Below are positions 16,698 through 31,756 of a DNA stretch of 32,859 nucleotides, one piece after another. The translations under genes were made by a program, and so were the position numbers. The notes below the pieces were generated by a model. That model was not told the origin of the DNA. It made no database searches and worked only from the letters and a program-made list of their open reading frames with translations. Each line of letters begins with the position of its first letter. The first letter of the stretch is position 1. This DNA is from Desulfobacteraceae bacterium (lineage in GTDB: Bacteria; Desulfobacterota; Desulfobacteria; Desulfobacterales; Desulfobacteraceae): contig PIVS01000010.1 of NCBI GenBank assembly GCA_003353855.1, positions 1 through 32,859 on the forward strand. The letters are read 5' to 3'.

Positions 16698-18416
16698 ATG
16701 CTTATCGAAAGATTAAATTTTAAAACCCTTCAGGGAAGACTCATCGTATTGTTATTGTTTCCAGTCTTTTTGATCATATTTTCCGGAGGAATTTTAAGTT
16801 TTATATATACTCGAAATGCTATTCTCGATCAGTGGAATGAATCGGCTGTGCTAAAGCTTCAACGGGCAGCCCACTATATTGAAATGCGTCTTTTAAAACC
16901 CATTGAATTAATGGAAATGCTGTTTCAACTTTCTAAAAAAAAGGAGACACCGATATCCCCGGATACCATTGTGGATCATATAAAAACCCTGGAAGGCGTT
17001 ATTAATGTTGAGTTTCAAAATTTATCAGAAAATGATCACCTCATTTCAGTTCCTGAAAATTCAATGATGGCTAAACATGGGATAATGCATTTCCAGTACA
17101 GCCGAATATCCAAAATTTCTGATCCGGAATATGATAGCGATGTAGGGCATGAAACCGTGACGCTTATTTTGACCTTAATTGATGTCAGAGGAAATGATAG
17201 CGGTCAAATTAAGGTAAAAATGAGCTTTAATTACTTGCTCAAGGACATCATAAAGCTTGGATGGTGGCAAAGTGATATGGCCTGTATTGTTGATCAGGAT
17301 GGCAAATATATGGCTCATACCAATATGACAATGCAAGGCCGCCAGACTCTGGGTGGGGAAAATGACCCATTGGAAAAGGCAATTTTAAATAAAATGGAGG
17401 CCGATCCCTTTGGCACGGTTCAATCAGAAGGACATCCTCCGAATATGGTGGCAGGATTTTATAAACTCGAACAAATTCCCTGGACAATTATATTATTTGC
17501 AAAGGGAGAAAGTATTCTCAAGCCAATTATCCAATACAGAAATGTTTTTGCTTTAGGAAGTGCTGGTCTAATTTTTATCATCCTCCTGCTCATAAGACGG
17601 CATGTTGGCGAAATCGTCAGTCAGATAAAAATGTTGTCGAGAAATGCTAAAAAGGTCGCAGGCGGGGAATATGGTTCTCCCATCAAAGTGAGCAGCAAGG
17701 ATGAAATCGGGCAATTGGTGGGTAACTACAATAACATGGTAAAAGGTTTGATAGAACGGGATTTCATTCGGGATTCCTTTGGCCGATATGTTGACCCGGA
17801 GTTTGCAAAATATTTGTTAAAACATCCAGATGCTGGAGAACTGGGAGGCAAAAGAAGGGAAGTGGTCATGATGATGTCTGATATCAGGGGTTTTACAGCT
17901 CTTTCAGAAACCTTTAGCCCTGAAATTATCATCCGGGTTCTGAATCAGTATTTTTCCCACATGATAAAAATCATTCAGGAGCACAATGGTATTATTGTTG
18001 ATTTTTTTGGAGATGCGATACTGGTATTTTTTGAGCCGCTGTCGGGATCTACCTCTGACACATCGCTTTGCTGCATTCAGTGTGCCTCTCGTATGCAGTC
18101 TGAAATGGCAGCTTTTAATAAAAAAATGCAAGAAGAAAAATTGCCCGGCCTGGGTATGGGCATTGGAATAAATGCTGGCCAGGTAATTGTCGGGAATATC
18201 GGATCTGATACCCGGGCAAAATATGGGGTTGTGGGATCAGCAGTAAATATTACAAGCCGTATTCAGGCCAAGGCAGAGAAGAAGGAAATCATTATCTCTG
18301 AATCAGTATATCACTACACAAAGGATCAAATTCAGATTAAAAAAACATTTTCCACTGAATTGAAAGGGGTGGATGAACCAATGTCTCTACGGATAATAGA
18401 AGACATTATTGGCTAA
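16698..18416 (+). CDS. Class III adenylate/guanylate cyclase with extracytoplasmic sensor domain and HAMP
   Basis: 572 aa; two TM segments, Cache-like region, HAMP (AKKVAGGEYGSPIKVSSKDEIGQL), cyclase domain (MMSDIRGFTALSE...DFFGDAILVFFEP...GINAGQVIVGNIGSDTRAKYGVVGSAVNITSRIQ). Confidence 0.92.
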   Translation: MLIERLNFKTLQGRLIVLLLFPVFLIIFSGGILSFIYTRNAILDQWNESAVLKLQRAAHYIEMRLLKPIELMEMLFQLSKKKETPISPDTIVDHIKTLEGVINVEFQNLSENDHLISVPENSMMAKHGIMHFQYSRISKISDPEYDSDVGHETVTLILTLIDVRGNDSGQIKVKMSFNYLLKDIIKLGWWQSDMACIVDQDGKYMAHTNMTMQGRQTLGGENDPLEKAILNKMEADPFGTVQSEGHPPNMVAGFYKLEQIPWTIILFAKGESILKPIIQYRNVFALGSAGLIFIILLLIRRHVGEIVSQIKMLSRNAKKVAGGEYGSPIKVSSKDEIGQLVGNYNNMVKGLIERDFIRDSFGRYVDPEFAKYLLKHPDAGELGGKRREVVMMMSDIRGFTALSETFSPEIIIRVLNQYFSHMIKIIQEHNGIIVDFFGDAILVFFEPLSGSTSDTSLCCIQCASRMQSEMAAFNKKMQEEKLPGLGMGIGINAGQVIVGNIGSDTRAKYGVVGSAVNITSRIQAKAEKKEIIISESVYHYTKDQIQIKKTFSTELKGVDEPMSLRIIEDIIG

Positions 18417-19030
18417 CGCTTTATTCCCCTACCCCAATAATTAAACGTTAAGGGCCTCGGACCTGGCAAATACGTGGTCTTCATCTCCTGAATATAAAAA
18501 CCTTCTCCTTCAATAAGCTCTGGTATTCTCCGGTTCAAATGACACCCCCCGGCAATATACCTCCACAGGGAAGTCAACCTGTTTTGCCATTTTAGAACAG
18601 CCTTGTCAGGTGCCAGACCATGTTCACAAAAATATAATTTTCCTCCAGGCTTAGGCACACGGTACATCTCTTTTAGAGCTGACAGAATATCAGGAATGGT
18701 GCAAAGGGTATATGTCACCACCACAGAGTCGATGCTATTACTTTCCAGGGGGATCTGGCAGGCAGAAGCATCTAAAAAGGAAACCCTGTCCATTCGTCGT
18801 TGAGCCCTCTTTTCGGCCATGGAAATCATTTTTAAAGAAGGCTCAAGACCTATGAGGAGAGATACTTTTCGATGATCATAAAAAGGGAAATTCAGACCTG
18901 AACCCACACCTATCTCAAGGACCCTTCCAGTTGCCTGGCGAACGATTTTTTCCCGTTGTCGAGTGATTGGACTGCTACTGCATAAATGGTTAACGATTCC
19001 AGGCAAAATATACTCTCTATAAAAACTCAT
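18413..19030 (-). CDS. Class I SAM-dependent methyltransferase (UbiE/METTL7-like)
   Basis: 205 aa; VLEIGVGSGLNFPFYDH, IGLEPSLKMISMAEKRA, SIDSVVVTYTLCTIPDILSALKEMYRVPKPGGKLYFCEHG. Confidence 0.9.
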   Translation of the reverse strand: MSFYREYILPGIVNHLCSSSPITRQREKIVRQATGRVLEIGVGSGLNFPFYDHRKVSLLIGLEPSLKMISMAEKRAQRRMDRVSFLDASACQIPLESNSIDSVVVTYTLCTIPDILSALKEMYRVPKPGGKLYFCEHGLAPDKAVLKWQNRLTSLWRYIAGGCHLNRRIPELIEGEGFYIQEMKTTYLPGPRPLTFNYWGRGIKR

Positions 19031-19118: not shown

Positions 19119-19135
19119 TGTCTAAAAATTAGACA
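19119..19135. promoter_or_regulatory. Perfect palindrome, candidate activator (UAS) or repressor site 1
   Basis: TGTCTAA-AAA-TTAGACA, perfect 7-3-7 dyad, about 150 bp upstream of the inferred sigma-54 start site. Confidence 0.5.
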
Positions 19136-19172: not shown

Positions 19173-19252
19173 TATTTCCAAGATAGTCGCAAAAAGTTTA
19201 AAAGTAATGGCTTTTATCCAGAAATGATTCTTTTTTTCAAATCTAAAAGACT

Positions 19253-19268
19253 TGGCATACCTTGTGCA
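19253..19268 (+). promoter_or_regulatory. Sigma-54 (RpoN) promoter of the metal efflux operon
   Basis: TGGCATACCTTGTGCA: GG at -24 and GC at -12 with correct 10-bp spacing; about 60 bp upstream of the 19330 smORF. Confidence 0.65.
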
Positions 19269-19329
19269 GAATATTGTTTTCATATTGGCGAAATAACCGA
19301 CTAAATTCCCAAAACTTATGGAGAAAAAC

Positions 19330-19458
19330 ATGAGTGATCAGCAAATGTTGGACAGCCAGCATTTGAATGACCAAGATATGAATCATGATGCTGTAGACCA
19401 TGATAAAATGGGCCATGAGTCCAACCAGAAAATGGCAGAGGATTTTTTCCAAGAGTGA
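19330..19458 (+). CDS. Small (42 aa) His/Met/Asp-rich putative metal-binding peptide (unlisted smORF)
   Basis: ATG...TGA encodes MSDQQMLDSQHLNDQDMNHDAVDHDKMGHESNQKMAEDFFQE; GGAG about 7 bp upstream; first ORF after the sigma-54 promoter. Confidence 0.6.
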   Translation: MSDQQMLDSQHLNDQDMNHDAVDHDKMGHESNQKMAEDFFQE

Positions 19459-19481: not shown

Positions 19482-19596
19482 ATTTTAAAGATTGTAAGGG
19501 CGTGTAAAAAAAAGTATACTTTGTACGTTACCTTAAGCCGAATACGGACTACTCGCCCTTTCCTTTAAAATTTTAGAACAATTCTTTTAAGGTAAC
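19482..19596 (+). other. Structured leader RNA candidate with interleaved inverted repeats
   Basis: ATTTTAAAG..AAGGGCG (19482-19502) pairs with CGCCCTT..CTTTAAAAT (19554-19571); GTTACCTTAA (19527-19536), inside that loop, pairs with TTAAGGTAAC (19587-19596) outside it. Confidence 0.5.
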
Positions 19597-19686: not shown

Positions 19687-21033
19687 ATGAAACAGTTTAT
19701 TATCTTAGCAGTTTTTCTATGTTTTGGAGTCTTGGCCTTTTCGCCGGACAATTCTTTTGCATCAGAAAAGGGGGGGCTTCCTGAAATAGAGGACAGGTTG
19801 TCTGAGAGCCTTGATCTGTCAGATCTACTCCACTATGCATATTTGTCAAATCCCTCTATTACAGCTTCACGGGAATCCTGGCAGATCTTTATCGAGAACT
19901 ACAGGATTGGAAAAAGCTATCCAGATCCCCAGCTCATGACTACTTATTTCCCCAATCCCATCGAAACAAGATTAGGGCCCCAGGACTGGAACCTGACTCT
20001 GTCCCAGGCAATTCCCTTTCCCGGGACCTTGTCACAAAAGGGCAAAGTACTGGAGGCCGATGCCAAGATTGCAAGGCTTATGGTGGATAAAACAGTTAAA
20101 AATATCGTTACCGCTGTTTCTTCTTCTTATTATGAATTGATTTACATCCAGAAAGCCATTGATGTTGCAACAGCAAACCTGACTTTAAACCAGAAATTAT
20201 TGAATATCAGTCACAACGCCTATGCTCAAGACAAAGCTCTTTTCTACGATGTGTCCAAGGCCCGGGCACAGACTGCACAGATTCAATATGACATCATGCT
20301 GTTGCAGGAACTGGAACAAACAGAAAAAACAAAGATTAATATCTTGTTAAACAGGCCCCCCAATGAAGCCATTGGCAAAGCAATGAATCTTGCCCCAAAA
20401 CAGGTGGTCTATTCATTGGACGAAATTTATGGCCTCTCCATGATTTACCAGGAAGATAATCTTATTGCCCAAGAAGCCATTCTAAAGTCAGAAGAAGCCA
20501 TTCAGCTTACCAAATATGAAAATCTACCCTCGTTCAAGTTTGGTCTTTTTTATGCCGGTATCGGCCAGCCGGATGTGGCATCTCCTCCAAAGGATGCCGG
20601 GGATGATGCTGTCGGGGTACAACTGGGTTTAAATCTTCCGTTGTGGTTTGGTAAAAATAAAAGCCGAACGGCAAAGGCAAAAGCTTTCAAAGCAAAAGCA
20701 ACGGCTGATAAAACCGTGACCGCTAACAGAACCAAAGCCAGGATCAGCCGCCTCTGGTTTAAGCTACAGAATTCAAATCGTTTGATTCTCCTTTATGAAA
20801 ACGATCTGCTGCCCCAGGCCCTTGCTTCCGTTAAAACCTCTGAGACCTGGTTCCGAGAAGGACAGGGAAATTTTGCTGATTTCCTGGAGATCCAGGCAAC
20901 CGCCTATAACTTTCAACTATCCCTTGAACGGGCAAAGACTGATTATAGCAAAACTCTTGTACAGCTTGAACAACTGGCCGGAGTAATTCTTGATAGAAAA
21001 AATCCTGAACCAGAAGGAGAGAAGGAGCAATGA
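19687..21033 (+). CDS. TolC-family outer membrane efflux protein (OMF 1)
   Basis: ORF listed from 19642; ATG 19687 (MKQFIILAVFLCFGVLAFSPDNSFAS) has RBS aagga and a signal peptide. TolC-like helical repeats (LSQAIPFPGTLSQKGKVLEADAKIA, LGLNLPLWFGKNKSRTAKAKAFKAKA). Confidence 0.88.
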   Translation: MKQFIILAVFLCFGVLAFSPDNSFASEKGGLPEIEDRLSESLDLSDLLHYAYLSNPSITASRESWQIFIENYRIGKSYPDPQLMTTYFPNPIETRLGPQDWNLTLSQAIPFPGTLSQKGKVLEADAKIARLMVDKTVKNIVTAVSSSYYELIYIQKAIDVATANLTLNQKLLNISHNAYAQDKALFYDVSKARAQTAQIQYDIMLLQELEQTEKTKINILLNRPPNEAIGKAMNLAPKQVVYSLDEIYGLSMIYQEDNLIAQEAILKSEEAIQLTKYENLPSFKFGLFYAGIGQPDVASPPKDAGDDAVGVQLGLNLPLWFGKNKSRTAKAKAFKAKATADKTVTANRTKARISRLWFKLQNSNRLILLYENDLLPQALASVKTSETWFREGQGNFADFLEIQATAYNFQLSLERAKTDYSKTLVQLEQLAGVILDRKNPEPEGEKEQ

Positions 21034-22559
21034 AAATAATAATAAGCGGTATATTTATTCTAAGTATTCTTTGTGTATCACTATTATATGCAGATTATGA
21101 CAGCATGAAAAAAGACCTGGAAGAATACACTCCGCAAAAGAGTTTTGCCATCATAGCCGAGCCTGGTGTTCAAGAAGCGAAGACGTTTCCTGGTAATGCT
21201 CCTATCGTTGCAGAAATAAAAACCTTGAAAAAGGGTTATGAAAAAGAAATTTCCAACCCGAACAGCCGGCTTATCGAGATAGGGGTGGATGAAAAAATCC
21301 TCAAACGGCTATCCGGGATATCTTCTGATCAAGATGCGCTCATTAAACATATTGAGCAAAAAATCCGTTTGAATGAGATTCGAGTCATTGCTGTCTTGCG
21401 CAATCCGGCTATCCAGGCCGCCCAAAAAAAAGTAATGGCTGAAATCCAGTCCTTTGACCAGGTCATGAACCTGGACAGCACGCTTAAGCAATATGCCTCT
21501 TTCACCAAGCCAATCAATAATAAGGTTGGTCCCCTGAAAGGGAAGGATTCCATTAAAATGAATTATCCTTTTCCAGGATTGTCCGCCCTTAAAGGCCGTA
21601 TTGTTCAAAGCCAGGTGGCCATGTTGATGGAAAAGATGAAAATTATTAACAAACAGGTTATCAGAGATGTCGAAAAAGCCTATTGGGACTTTATTTTTGT
21701 AGTAAAATCGACAAAGATCACCACGGAGACCATTGATGCTTTTGAACGTCTTGGGGGTGTCGCCACATCCCTGTACAAAAGCGGTAAAACCAGCTTCCAG
21801 GATGTGATCAAGATCAATATTAAGATAGAAGAACTCAAAGAAGATCTGGTTACCTTGAAAGCCAAAAAGAAAAATATAGAAATCCGGATTCTTGAACTTT
21901 TAAACCTACCGGCTAACATCCGTTTAGGCAAGGCTATTGTCGCCCAGCAGCCTCCCAAAACGCCCCGGGCTGAAGCTCTTTTTTCCCTTGCCAGGGAGCA
22001 CCGCCAGGAACTCAAAGCAATCCGGTTTCAGATCAGCAAACTTGAGTCCATGGTGGAAATGTCGGAATCCATGATAGAAGCTCCGCTTACCCTGGGATTT
22101 TCAACTTCTGAAAATGATATCGTCAACACAACTGGTACCGACGCCCCCAATGAGGCCTTTGCCACCAAGACCATGGCGGCCATGAAAAATAACACCCCTG
22201 CCAAACCCTTATACGGGTTGGATGAACCCTGGCTTGCGCAAACAAGGCAGAATCTGTCAAGCCTTCGACAAACTCTGCTAACCCAGGAAAATGCCACAAC
22301 CAGGATGGTGAGAAATGCCTGGTTTAAAACAGACAAAAATCGAAGGGAATTCAGCTTATATCAAAACCGAATTCTGCCTTTGGCAAAATCTGCTCTGGAT
22401 GTGTCCACCAAGGAGTACGAAGCCGGGTCCATCCCATTTTCCCAAGCCATTGATTCCTATACCTATTGGCTGAAAGTTAAATTGACCATCGCAAAAAAAC
22501 AGGCTGACCTTGGCACCTCCTTTGCTGAACTGGAAAATATTGTGGGAAAACAATTATGA
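21030..22559 (+). CDS. TolC-family outer membrane efflux protein (OMF 2)
   Basis: 509 aa; signal peptide; YPFPGLSALKGRIVQSQVAML, ELLNLPANIRLGKA, KEYEAGSIPFSQAIDSYTYWLKVKLTIAKKQADLGTSFAELENIVG; overlaps the upstream stop (ATGA). Confidence 0.8.
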   Translation: MKIIISGIFILSILCVSLLYADYDSMKKDLEEYTPQKSFAIIAEPGVQEAKTFPGNAPIVAEIKTLKKGYEKEISNPNSRLIEIGVDEKILKRLSGISSDQDALIKHIEQKIRLNEIRVIAVLRNPAIQAAQKKVMAEIQSFDQVMNLDSTLKQYASFTKPINNKVGPLKGKDSIKMNYPFPGLSALKGRIVQSQVAMLMEKMKIINKQVIRDVEKAYWDFIFVVKSTKITTETIDAFERLGGVATSLYKSGKTSFQDVIKINIKIEELKEDLVTLKAKKKNIEIRILELLNLPANIRLGKAIVAQQPPKTPRAEALFSLAREHRQELKAIRFQISKLESMVEMSESMIEAPLTLGFSTSENDIVNTTGTDAPNEAFATKTMAAMKNNTPAKPLYGLDEPWLAQTRQNLSSLRQTLLTQENATTRMVRNAWFKTDKNRREFSLYQNRILPLAKSALDVSTKEYEAGSIPFSQAIDSYTYWLKVKLTIAKKQADLGTSFAELENIVGKQL

Positions 22560-24064
22560 AAAACACAGGGGAAAACTTCATGAAAATAACAAGGTTTGGA
22601 TTGACCATTATCTTCACTGCGCTGATAACCGGTACAGCCGTTTTTTATATAATGACTGCCCTCACTACCTTCGCCCCGGCAACAGGGCAAGCAACCAAAG
22701 AAGGCACTAAAGAACGGAAAATCATCTATTGGAAAGCCCCCATGGATCCCACTGAGATCTATGAAGAGCCAGGCAAAAGTAAGATGGGTATGGATCTTGT
22801 CCCTGTATACGAGGATGAGATGGCAGGAGAGGACGATGACAAGGAACGAAAAATAGTTTATTGGAAGGCCCCCATGGATCCAACCGAGATCTATGATCAA
22901 CCAGGTAAGAGCAAGATGGGCATGGACCTTGTCCCGGTGTATGAGGACGAACTGGTGGGCGGAGTGGACATTAAAATCAATCCTGTGGTGGAACAGAACA
23001 TGGGGTTGAAAGTTGAGTCCGTTGAAAAAGGCCCCTTGAACCATATCGTCAGAACCTATGGGCATGTTACCTTTGATGAGACCCTGACAGGTATTATCAG
23101 TCAGAAATCTTCTGGCTGGATAGAAACGCTTTATGCAGACTATACTGGCTTTATGGTTAAAAAGGGGGACCCCTTATATGAGATTTATTCTCCCTCCCTA
23201 CTGGCCTCCCAGGAAGAATACCTCTCTGCCTATAAAAATCACCAGAGAAGCAAAAGTAAATTAAACAAAGAACTGCTTGAATCAGCCAGGAAAAGGCTCC
23301 AGTATTATGATATTGCGGACCAGGAAATCAGACGCATTGAAAAATCGGGTCAGGTTCAAAAAACCTTGACCGTCAGATCCCCTTACCAGGGTGTGATAAC
23401 CCATAAAAATGTCATTGAAGGGAGCTATGTCAAAACCGGCGCAAGCCTCTTTACCATTGCCGATCTGTCCACTGTATGGGTAGAAGCCCATATCTTTGAA
23501 TATGAACAAAATCTGGTTTATGAAGGGCAGGAAGTTGAAATGATCTTGTCCTATAATCCAGATAAGGTCCACACCGGTAAAATCTCTTATATTTTCCCAT
23601 ATTTGCAGCCAAAAACCCGGGATGTGATCATCCGGATTTCCTTTGAAAACACAAAAGATGAATTAAAGCCGGACATGTTTGCCCAGATTAAGATCAATAC
23701 CAACACTGATAATGCAGGATTATTTATCTCTTCCCAGGCCGTCATTCATTCTGGAGAGAAAAAAATAGTCTTCGTGGCAAAGGGCAAAGGGACTTTCACT
23801 CCCAGACAGATCACCACAGGAATATTTCTGGAACAGGGAAGAGTTCAGGTATTAAGCGGTCTTGCTGCAGGAGAAAATATTGTGGTGTCCGGACAGTTTC
23901 TACTGGATTCTGAGTCCAAGCTCAAAGAGGCAATTCAAAAAATGATCGAATCAAAATCCGGTCTTGCAGCGGTGGGACAGACAGCGACAAAAGAGGGTCC
24001 AGATGACTTCTTTGATGAGATGGATGAAAAGCCAAAAGACGACTTCTTCAAGGACATGGAATAG
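22556..24064 (+). CDS. CusB-like RND periplasmic adaptor with two tandem heavy-metal-binding-like modules
   Basis: YWKAPMDPTEIY..PGKSKMGMDLVPVYEDE twice, then barrel-sandwich/beta-barrel adaptor (MGLKVESVEKGPLNHIVRTYGHVTFDE..., VRSPYQGVITHKNVIEGSYVKTG, VVSGQFLLDSESKLKEA). Alternative start ATG 22580. Confidence 0.92.
   Translation: MKNTGENFMKITRFGLTIIFTALITGTAVFYIMTALTTFAPATGQATKEGTKERKIIYWKAPMDPTEIYEEPGKSKMGMDLVPVYEDEMAGEDDDKERKIVYWKAPMDPTEIYDQPGKSKMGMDLVPVYEDELVGGVDIKINPVVEQNMGLKVESVEKGPLNHIVRTYGHVTFDETLTGIISQKSSGWIETLYADYTGFMVKKGDPLYEIYSPSLLASQEEYLSAYKNHQRSKSKLNKELLESARKRLQYYDIADQEIRRIEKSGQVQKTLTVRSPYQGVITHKNVIEGSYVKTGASLFTIADLSTVWVEAHIFEYEQNLVYEGQEVEMILSYNPDKVHTGKISYIFPYLQPKTRDVIIRISFENTKDELKPDMFAQIKINTNTDNAGLFISSQAVIHSGEKKIVFVAKGKGTFTPRQITTGIFLEQGRVQVLSGLAAGENIVVSGQFLLDSESKLKEAIQKMIESKSGLAAVGQTATKEGPDDFFDEMDEKPKDDFFKDME
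22712..22954 (+). repeat. Tandem in-gene duplication (copies 22712-22822 and 22844-22954, 132-bp period)
   Basis: Both encode ERKI(I/V)YWKAPMDPTEIY(E/D)(E/Q)PGKSKMGMDLVPVYEDE with clear nucleotide identity. Confidence 0.9.
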
Positions 24065-27579: not shown

Positions 27580-28038
27580 ATGAACTCAATTTTGAAACCC
27601 ATTATTACCATTACTTTTACCGCATTACTATTAACCAGTGCTGCCTTCGCCGGTGATGACATGAAAAACCACGACATGTCTTCGTCAGATAAAATCGGAG
27701 ACCTTTTCCATGAATCCATAGTGGACGGTTATATGCTTTCTTATTACCTCATGGATCTTCGTGATCAGAAAGACGCTGACAAAAAAGATATGGATAAGCC
27801 CCATCACATCATGGTTTATATCATGGATAAAGATCATAAACCCGTTCATGAGGGAAAGGTCGGATTCATGATCAAGAAGGATGATATGGCACCCCCCCAG
27901 AAAGCCATGGCCATGTACATGAGCAAAGGATTCGGTATTACGGCTGATATGAAACAAAAAGGAGTATACTCCATTACTGCCAAGGCACTGTTGGGAGATG
28001 CCAAACTCATAGACAGCTTTACCTATGAGATGAAATAA
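27580..28038 (+). CDS. Exported Met/His-rich protein, putative periplasmic metal-binding protein
   Basis: 152 aa; signal peptide (..LLLTSAAFAGDD), DDMKNHDMSSSD, PHHIMVYIMDKDHKPVH, PPQKAMAMYMSKGFG; last-but-one gene after cusA-like. Confidence 0.75.
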   Translation: MNSILKPIITITFTALLLTSAAFAGDDMKNHDMSSSDKIGDLFHESIVDGYMLSYYLMDLRDQKDADKKDMDKPHHIMVYIMDKDHKPVHEGKVGFMIKKDDMAPPQKAMAMYMSKGFGITADMKQKGVYSITAKALLGDAKLIDSFTYEMK

Positions 28039-28619: not shown

Positions 28620-30008
28620 TCACTTTTCCCCCTTGGGTAGTATGTGGTCAAGGGACAGGTGATGTCGTTTCATTTTATTGTTCAGAGTTGTTCGGGTGAT
28701 ATTCAAAATTTTGGACGCTTCACTCTTATTCCCTTTTGTTTGTTTTAAGGTCTCAACAAGTGCCAGGCTTTCAATTTCATCAAGGGACTTTCCGCCCAGG
28801 GATAACTGAGTTTTAAACGAGGCTTCCGGACGATACTCTTTCATCACATTTATCGGCAGGTCCTTTTCAGATACATATTGCCCCATGGATAAAATGACGG
28901 CTCTTTCAATGGCATTTTCAAGTTCTCGCACATTGCCGGGCCATTGATATTTTGTCAGGGCATCCATTGCCATGGGGGTGAATCCCTTCAGGGCTTTCCT
29001 GTTCTTTTTGGTATATTTTTTTAGAAATTTTTGAGATAGAAGGGGGACATCGCCTGTTCGGTCTTCTAGCGGCGGGATCTCTATGTTTACAACATTCAGG
29101 CGGTAAAATAGATCTTCTCTGAAGGTCTTTTTTTTGACTTCTTTTCCCAGATTACGGTTTGTTGCGGCAATAATACGAACATTCACTTTTATGGTTTTGT
29201 CGCTGCCTACACTTTGAATCTCTTTTTCCTGAATGGCTCTGAGCAACTTTACCTGCATGGAAAGAGGCATCTCTCCGATTTCATCTAAAAAAATAGACCC
29301 CTTATCCGCCTGTCTGAACAGGCCGTCACGTTTCTTGTCCGCACCGGTGAAAGCTCCTTTTTCATGACCAAACAATTCTGATTCCAGAAGGGTTTCGGTC
29401 AAGGCAGCACAATTTACAACCACCAGCATGTGGTCTCGCCGGTAACTGGTTTTGTGGATCGCCTTTGCAAAAAGTTCTTTGCCTGTGCCACTTTCACCAG
29501 TAATAAGAATATTGGCATCAGATTTGGCTGTGATTTTAGCTGTTTCCATGACCCTTTCCATGGTCCGGCTTGATCCAATGATGTCCGAAAAACTGCTTCC
29601 TGATAAAAGTTTCTCTTTAAGGACCTTATTTTCTATGGATAGCTTTAAATGGCTCATGGCCCTGTCGATTATAATTTTAAGTTCTTCAAAATTTAGCGGT
29701 TTGGTTAAATAATCATAGGCCCCAAGCTTCATGGCTTCTACTGCTTTGTCCACTGAGGAATACGCCGTCATAATAATGATAGGGATGGATGGATTGAATT
29801 CTTTGATCTGTTGTAATGCCTCTATACCATCAATACTGGACATCCTGACGTCCATAAGAATCAAATCATAGGGATTTTCTCGGGCTGACTCTATGGCCTG
29901 GCCTCCATCGGTTGCCTTTTCAACCTTGTGACCCAAGCTGCCCAGAACGGTATTGAGCATGGTAAGATGCCCTAAATCATCATCTACGACTAAGATACGT
30001 CCTTTCAT
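28620..30008 (-). CDS. NtrC-family sigma-54-dependent response regulator (ZraR/AtoC-like)
   Basis: 462 aa; receiver (VVDDDLGHL..LILMDVRM..MTAYSS..LTKPLN), AAA+ (GESGTGKELFAKAIH, GAFTGADKKRDGLFRQADKGSIFLDEIGEM), Fis-type HTH (NKSEASKILNITRTTLNNKMKRHHL). Confidence 0.95.
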   Translation of the reverse strand: MKGRILVVDDDLGHLTMLNTVLGSLGHKVEKATDGGQAIESARENPYDLILMDVRMSSIDGIEALQQIKEFNPSIPIIIMTAYSSVDKAVEAMKLGAYDYLTKPLNFEELKIIIDRAMSHLKLSIENKVLKEKLLSGSSFSDIIGSSRTMERVMETAKITAKSDANILITGESGTGKELFAKAIHKTSYRRDHMLVVVNCAALTETLLESELFGHEKGAFTGADKKRDGLFRQADKGSIFLDEIGEMPLSMQVKLLRAIQEKEIQSVGSDKTIKVNVRIIAATNRNLGKEVKKKTFREDLFYRLNVVNIEIPPLEDRTGDVPLLSQKFLKKYTKKNRKALKGFTPMAMDALTKYQWPGNVRELENAIERAVILSMGQYVSEKDLPINVMKEYRPEASFKTQLSLGGKSLDEIESLALVETLKQTKGNKSEASKILNITRTTLNNKMKRHHLSLDHILPKGEK

Positions 30009-31756
30009 ATCGGGTTTTCCTTTTCCCCAGTAATGGGCAATGACATTGAAATTGTTGTGCCATAGTTTTCTGTGCTTTCTACCTGTATAAAACCATTGTG
30101 GTTTTCTATAATTTTATGGGCAATGGCCAACCCCAGACCGGTACCTTTATTTTTAGTGGTAAAATAGGGGTCAAATATATGTTTTAAATTTTCCACGGGG
30201 ATCCCCCCCCCCGTATCAGATACATTAATAATAATGCTTGATCCTTTTTTTTCTGCCTGCGCTATAAGATTGCCTCCTTCGGCCATGGCTTGAATGGCAT
30301 TGAGATATAAATTTAAGAGAACCTGAGTCAACCGGTCCGGGTCCGCTTTAAGATCCGGCAGGTCTGATTTTATAATTTTTTTAATTTGAATACCAGCGGT
30401 TTCGGCTTCGTGAGTGACAATTCGTATGGAATGATCAATCAAGTCTCTTACCTTGATTTTTTTAAATTTGAGATCAGAGGGCCTTGCAAATTCAAGGAGC
30501 TCGGAAATCACACGATTTACCCGGTCCACCTCTTCTGCCATGAGATTTGCGGCTTGTTTATTTTCACTGCTGTCCTCGAACAGGCTGCCAAAATAGGTGA
30601 CATACCCTTTTATAGAGCTTAACGGGTTTCTAATTTCATGGGCAATACCAGCGGCCAGGTTTCCAACTGTGGCCAGTTTTTCAATGCGCTGTGTTTTTAT
30701 TTCCAGTTCCCTGATTTCTGTTAAATCTTTAAGAACAATCATAAAACCAATGTATTTTCCACCTTCTCCGTGGATGTCTGTTGCACTGACAGCCACCGGA
30801 ACCGATTTGTTTTTTTCTATTAAAAGACAAATCTCTTTTTCTGCTACCGGCTGGCCTGATTTGATCATACCATGCAAACTCCATATATTATCTGGAAGAA
30901 GCTCTTTGGCATCCACACCTTGCACTGCCTGTTCATTTGTCCCAAGAAGATCCCATGCAACAGCATTGCTGTATATGACCCGATACCGGGTATCCATAAC
31001 AAGAATCCCTACAGGCAGATGGGTTACCACTTCCGATGCCAGTTTTTGGGTGTCCTGAAGAAGTTTGCGAGAACGGGTATAGTTTTGTGCCCAGAAGAGT
31101 GAGATAACCCCTGCAAGACCGAGAGAAAAAATAATTGCGGCCATCACAATATTATGTTTCAAATCTTCTCTCATGGCTATTTCAAAAGGGGCGATATTCA
31201 TTCCAATAAAAATATAGGGGCGATTGGTAGGGTCCAGAATTTTTCGGGTTGTGACACTGTTTCCCCAGTCTTGATGATCATGCCCCGGATGGTCGAAAAT
31301 CGGCAAAAAGGTCTTGTATACTTCAAAATATTTTATCCCGTTCTCCTGGCCCACTATTCTCCATTGGGGCAGGTTGGATGGGGAAAGGATCTCTAAAATA
31401 TCGGAATCTACAAATTTTTTCCCAATCAGAGATTTTTTATTATGGGCAAGAATTACCCCTGAACTATCCACTATGCTAATATAAGAAATATCAGACTGCC
31501 CAGCAGTCTCCTCCAGAAGTACCTGTAAATGAATTTCATTTGCAAACACCCCCATTTTTCCCATCATACCCATCATACCGGTGCGTGTGCCTGCTTCAAA
31601 GGAACGAATCAGAGCAGCCCCCTTTTCTTTCAAAAGCTGTCCCATCTGCTCTTTATCCCGATTGTAATTAACAACCCCCAAGAATCCCACAACCGTAATA
31701 AGAACCAAACTGATCCCAATGGTCATCCAGGGGGATATATGAATTTTAGATTTCAT
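30005..31756 (-). CDS. Membrane sensor histidine kinase with PAS domain (ZraS-like), cognate of the 28620 regulator
   Basis: 583 aa; two TM segments flanking an extracytoplasmic domain, PAS, HisKA (AAGIAHEIRNPLSSIKGY), HATPase (GGGIPVENLKHIFDPYFTTKNKGTGLGLAIAHKI); 4-bp overlap with the regulator. Confidence 0.94.
   Translation of the reverse strand: MKSKIHISPWMTIGISLVLITVVGFLGVVNYNRDKEQMGQLLKEKGAALIRSFEAGTRTGMMGMMGKMGVFANEIHLQVLLEETAGQSDISYISIVDSSGVILAHNKKSLIGKKFVDSDILEILSPSNLPQWRIVGQENGIKYFEVYKTFLPIFDHPGHDHQDWGNSVTTRKILDPTNRPYIFIGMNIAPFEIAMREDLKHNIVMAAIIFSLGLAGVISLFWAQNYTRSRKLLQDTQKLASEVVTHLPVGILVMDTRYRVIYSNAVAWDLLGTNEQAVQGVDAKELLPDNIWSLHGMIKSGQPVAEKEICLLIEKNKSVPVAVSATDIHGEGGKYIGFMIVLKDLTEIRELEIKTQRIEKLATVGNLAAGIAHEIRNPLSSIKGYVTYFGSLFEDSSENKQAANLMAEEVDRVNRVISELLEFARPSDLKFKKIKVRDLIDHSIRIVTHEAETAGIQIKKIIKSDLPDLKADPDRLTQVLLNLYLNAIQAMAEGGNLIAQAEKKGSSIIINVSDTGGGIPVENLKHIFDPYFTTKNKGTGLGLAIAHKIIENHNGFIQVESTENYGTTISMSLPITGEKENPI

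Follow-up and report, generated by a model that had tools for sequence, protein, structure and literature searches.

A small acidic Met/His-rich gene at the head of a Cus-type efflux locus in Desulfobacteraceae, possibly encoding a cytosolic metal-binding peptide

Results and Discussion

Gene Organization of the Efflux Locus

The window (the whole stretch of 32,859 nt that was analysed) carries on its forward strand an efflux operon coding for two outer membrane efflux proteins of the TolC type (Pfam OEP; TolC-like 1 at positions 19687-21033 and TolC-like 2 at 21030-22559), a CusB-like adaptor with two heavy-metal-binding (HMBD) motifs (22556-24064), an RND pump of the CusA/CzcA family (TIGR00914; 24081-27563) and, as the last gene, a probable periplasmic protein of 152 amino acid residues (27580-28038), which is conserved with CusA in most of the relatives and belongs to no Pfam family. 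In the genomes G054 and G102 the homologue of this last protein is encoded ahead of the TolC gene instead. A second CusB-CusA-152-aa cluster, about 62-86% identical, was found elsewhere in the assembly, on a different contig (L071, G000:C403), and is either a paralogue or contamination.

The operon is adjoined downstream, on the reverse strand, by the genes for an NtrC/ZraR-type sigma-54 response regulator (28620-30008), the likely activator, and for a ZraS-like histidine kinase (30005-31756). ZraR and ZraS were the best NCBIfam models for these two proteins, with scores below the curated cut-offs, and the regulator and kinase also adjoin the operon in G001, G002 and G003. In its N-terminal sensor region the kinase contains a Met-rich (MMGMMGKMG) and a His-rich (FDHPGHDHQDW) stretch, which may serve as its metal sensor. 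On the other side, a HAMP-adenylate/guanylate cyclase gene (16698-18416) lies upstream of the efflux operon in the window and in many relatives, and a regulatory link is possible. A methyltransferase gene (18413-19030), flanked by the cyclase gene on one side and by the palindrome described below on the other, was found in the window lineage only among the loci compared, and is probably a recent insertion relative to G002.

Promoters and Leader Region

A sigma-54 (-24/-12) promoter, TTGGCATACCTTGTGCA, which matches the consensus and has the GG-N10-GC spacing, is located on the forward strand at 19252-19268 and ends 61 nt ahead of the ATG (19330) of a small ORF, in agreement with the original prediction that such a promoter precedes the ORF. 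The promoter is kept in G002 (L038) and G001 (L039), and in G101 (L083) as TTGGCACGGCCTGTGCA; its spacing to the ATG, about 60-65 nt, is near-equal in the window, G001 and G101. The palindrome TGTCTAA-AAA-TTAGACA (TGTCTAAAAATTAGACA; 19119-19135) is present as a single exact copy per genome in the window assembly (G000), G001 and G002, always 114-118 nt ahead of the sigma-54 promoter, and as a near-copy in G003. It is a good candidate operator for the ZraR-like regulator, which would bind it as the activator of the sigma-54 promoter.

A sigma-70-like promoter (TTGTAA-17-TATACT; 19492-19520, forward strand) lies between the ORF and tolC. On its own this element was not above chance (not significant), and it was found in the same place and with the same 17-nt spacing in G002, G001 and G101, and in a weaker form in G003 (L082). 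Because of this conserved element between the ORF and tolC, the pump genes probably own a promoter downstream of the peptide. Together, the sigma-54 and sigma-70-like elements would give the operon two promoters in the relatives sharing this arrangement of the slot. The ORF had been described as the first gene of the efflux operon; it does head the locus, but the conserved sigma-70-like promoter separates it from tolC.

The 431-nt leader folds better than its shuffled versions (z -3.2), and an Rfam scan of the leader gave no match. Base pairing is possible between the tolC ribosome site and a pyrimidine tract upstream of it; inspection of the alignments by eye revealed that 2 of the 10 pairs are lost without compensation in G002, and that the pairing is absent in G003 and G101.

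The 42-Residue ORF

The ORF (19330-19458, forward strand; TGA stop codon at 19456-19458) codes for an acidic His/Met-rich peptide of 42 amino acid residues with a pI of 4.3, containing four His, five Met and no Cys. A GGAG sequence at 19320-19323 on the same strand is a plausible ribosome-binding site, as judged from the sequence, and is not conserved in G001. An alternative in-frame ATG at 19318 would extend the peptide to 46 residues, but lacks a ribosome site. The sequence and the coordinates are exactly those predicted. The peptide has a single HxxM (H24-M27) followed by MxH, and its C-terminus is AEDFFQE; Pro is absent from the short forms of the family. No signal sequence was found in frame upstream of the short ORF in either the window or G001, and the lack of a signal peptide is thereby confirmed. 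No match to the short-form peptides was obtained in Pfam or NCBIfam, and the peptides of this family are probably disordered.

An ATG-initiated ORF of at least 42 codons arose by chance in 61% of the Markov-generated versions of the intergenic region (both strands; P 0.61), and therefore the length of the ORF is no evidence for a gene. An ORF with at least 22% His plus Met arose in 0.03% of such versions (P 0.0003), which bears out the Met/His character attributed to the peptide.

Homologues in Related Genomes

A search of 98 related genomes gave a sole clear match, a 41-aa homologue (MNSQDMNNQHMDETTLNHGAIDHENMNHEAGQNMAEDFFKD; E 5e-8) in the identical slot of G001, a genome of the same genus, so that the frame is conserved in a relative. 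The G001 homologue is spaced from the downstream CusB gene almost as in the window and is preceded by a near-identical promoter; its start codon has no clear ribosome site. When the order was searched with a profile and with the long form described next, convincing homologues were those of G001, G021 and G101 only, and weak matches in G093, G011, G065, G077, G234 and G392, located in long open frames or in unrelated places, were taken as chance.

In G101 (CAJWHT010000246.1) the same slot, after the sigma-54 promoter, contains an ORF of 113 amino acid residues with the ribosome site AAGGTGG. Its N-terminus, MKVRTILTVAVILIWGITETGFA, is by eye a typical Sec signal, and from this probable signal peptide the long form is probably exported. 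The signal is followed by a Met/His-rich stretch ending in DHEYMDHDHTDHGDIHGNGREDEAEAFFND (...DHEYMDHD...AEAFFND), the same C-terminal stretch as in the window peptide, and the mature form contains no Cys. The long form had no match in NCBIfam, PDB or plasmids. At the protein level the G101 and the short forms are only modestly similar (shuffle P 0.012 and 0.023). The homologues suggest that the window peptide may be a shortened form of a protein which in G101 still has its signal peptide. The window, G001 and G101 forms have in common a core H-[DE]-x-M-x-H-[DE].

The G021 copy (L048) is broken, with YA-MMESGMGNGSNNHINQQGMDDTDIDHE followed by NMNHETAQNKADDFFKE one base out of frame and the core spread across the frameshift; neither a signal nor a sigma-54 promoter was recognisable there. 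The DNA alignments of G021 with G001 and with the window, and of G101 with G001 and with the window, all beat their shuffles (P <=0.018). The nearest relative, G002, whose TolC1 is 91% identical, has lost about 120 nt with most of the ORF, and the ORF tail is frameshifted; despite this loss the palindrome, the sigma-54 promoter and the downstream leader are kept. The ORF is also absent from G003, where the downstream leader is kept, and is missing from most of the family. The intact forms known are two short ones and one long one.

Two other genes were considered as relatives of the peptide and rejected. The 152-aa product of the last operon gene is also His/Met-rich, and inspection of its homologues failed to reveal the common C-terminal stretch. 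In the genus g13 (L041, L045, L096 and L097) the slot before TolC1 is occupied by a gene for a SHOCT-like small membrane protein, unrelated by sequence.

Selection on the Frame and Direction of Change

The window and G001 ORFs differ at 44 of 123 aligned sites, with 15, 8 and 21 differences at the first, second and third codon positions, respectively (5, 3 and 14 in the last 25, C-terminal codons). The comparison of synonymous and nonsynonymous changes, proposed as a check in the original prediction, gave by the NG86 method a dN of 0.36 with dS saturated, and by maximum likelihood a dN of 0.53 and a dS of 1.84 (dN/dS about 0.29). When as many changes were scattered at random, an open frame and an equal protein similarity were retained in 0.7-0.8% of the trials, and therefore selection has acted on the encoded protein during some or all of the period after the two lineages separated. 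The ORF is a real, previously overlooked small gene.

Since the window and G001 ORFs have the same start point and resemble each other in the DNA ahead of it, the ancestor that they share probably already had no signal, which, on the basis of these two sequences, would favour some function without export. In the TolC1 tree G101 is a near-basal branch of the clade (support 83/41) and G021 is in another branch; the window pairs with G002, and G001 with G003. The simplest reading would be that the ancestor was exported, that the signal was lost once and the gene several times, with a direction of change that is not firmly rooted and depends on one long form and the weakly supported node (83/41).

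Proposed Function and Alternatives

The interpretation preferred here, tentatively, is that the ORF encodes a dispensable cytosolic metal-binding peptide of a narrow, acidic, Met/His-rich family found at a ZraSR/sigma-54 Cus-type locus of Desulfobacteraceae. Under metal stress the response regulator would fire the sigma-54 promoter and the peptide would be made; it would then loosely bind a soft metal, Cu(I)/Ag(I) and perhaps Zn, through the H-[DE]-x-M-x-H-[DE] core, and may serve as a cheap, dispensable buffer. In the window genus the peptide should stay in the cytosol, since it has no signal peptide and matches a portion of the mature long form. In favour of a metal-binding gene were counted the G001 and G101 homologues in the same slot, the pattern of substitutions between the window and G001, the DNA alignments that beat their shuffles, the His/Met core, the promoter spacing, the ZraR/ZraS best models beside the operon and the restriction of the palindrome to this locus. 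Against it were counted the deletions in G002 and G003, the broken G021 copy, the absence from most of the family, the start of the G001 ORF without a clear ribosome site, the small number of known forms and the modest similarity to the G101 protein. A more specific version, in which an accessory protein exported alongside the Cus pump lost its signal in one genus and was kept by selection as a sigma-54-controlled cytosolic buffer, is conceivable but rather unlikely.

A close rival, nearly as likely as the cytosolic metal-binding peptide, is that the ORF is an eroding relic, whose job was lost with the signal peptide and whose remaining frame is drifting away, being deleted or frameshifted in sister genomes. 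The four states seen in a small clade (long with a signal, short without it, frameshifted and deleted) are in line with such decay, as are the weak ribosome site in G001 and the deletion in the nearest relative, which spares the promoter, the palindrome and the downstream leader. It is harder to reconcile with erosion that the common ancestor was probably signal-less already, and yet the frame, the His/Met core and the C-terminus have stayed intact under saturated synonymous change. That the ORF merely arose by chance within an untranslated leader is very improbable: its length is to be expected in such a region, but its composition is not, and conservation speaks strongly against it, since homologues occupy the slot in three further lineages, including the long form with a signal peptide.

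The original prediction had also considered a leader peptide whose translation senses metal. In such a mechanism metal on the nascent chain would alter translation or termination and so control tolC-cusBA, as in the copper-responsive upstream ORFs CruR and CutF (DUF2946) (PMC9426467, PMC9973294). The short ORF at the head of a metal operon resembles these systems, and the folding of the leader and the possible pairing of the tolC ribosome site count in its favour. The proposal did not hold up well and is considered improbable: the ORF is gone from G002 and G003, which retain the leader and the downstream promoter, a sigma-70-like promoter lies 3' of the ORF, and the ribosome-site pairing decays in the relatives. 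Unlike CruR and CutF, moreover, the peptide has no CXXC (Cys being absent from the window, G001 and mature G101 forms), no signal peptide for export, and no RAPP or other proline-rich stall motif, ending instead in AEDFFQE. Finally, the peptide might leave the cytosol without a classical signal or act in the envelope, the probable site of the long form. The probable signal peptide of the long homologue and the periplasm-facing pump, adaptor and sensor would suit such a location, but neither the window nor G001 has an in-frame signal sequence upstream, and this reading is very improbable.

Very short Met/His-rich genes escape gene callers. Within a few genera, the slot at this one metal pump holds a gene whose product has an export signal, one whose product lacks it, or a frameshifted copy, or has been cleanly deleted. 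In this natural series it can be asked whether losing the signal yields a new cytosolic metal-binding peptide or only begins the loss of the gene.

Comparison with Known Systems

In its proposed function the peptide is most like SilE/PcoE, ZraP or CopM; by sequence or motif it is a member of none of them, and represents a new, narrow variant among the small Met/His-rich accessories of metal-efflux loci. CopM of Synechocystis is likewise a Met/His-rich protein found alongside an HME-RND pump and a two-component system (PMC4335983), but it contains DUF305 domains and is made with a signal peptide, and the short form has neither (no Pfam match). ZraP of the ZraPSR system is also encoded by an accessory gene at a sigma-54 promoter under a ZraR-type regulator (PMC7657598); in contrast, the present locus is that of an RND pump, and its peptide has no ZraP/Metal_resist domain (Pfam, NCBIfam) or signal peptide.

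SilE contains the repeated motifs MxxHxxxxxHxxMxx and HxxMxxxHxxMxx (PMC5008109), whereas the window peptide, at 42 residues much shorter, has one HxxMxH core. It also differs from SilE/PcoE in its sigma-54 control and in the lack of a signal peptide; the export of SilE/PcoE to the periplasm is not matched by the window and G001 forms, while the G101 form has a probable signal by eye. No sequence match to SilE/PcoE was obtained for the short forms in Pfam and NCBIfam, or for the long form in NCBIfam, PDB and plasmids. With these periplasmic Ag/Cu sponges, which fold upon metal binding, the peptide shares the character of a small, His/Met-rich, probably disordered accessory to a Cus/Sil-type RND pump, the presence of a two-component system and the HxxM spacing (PMC5008109).
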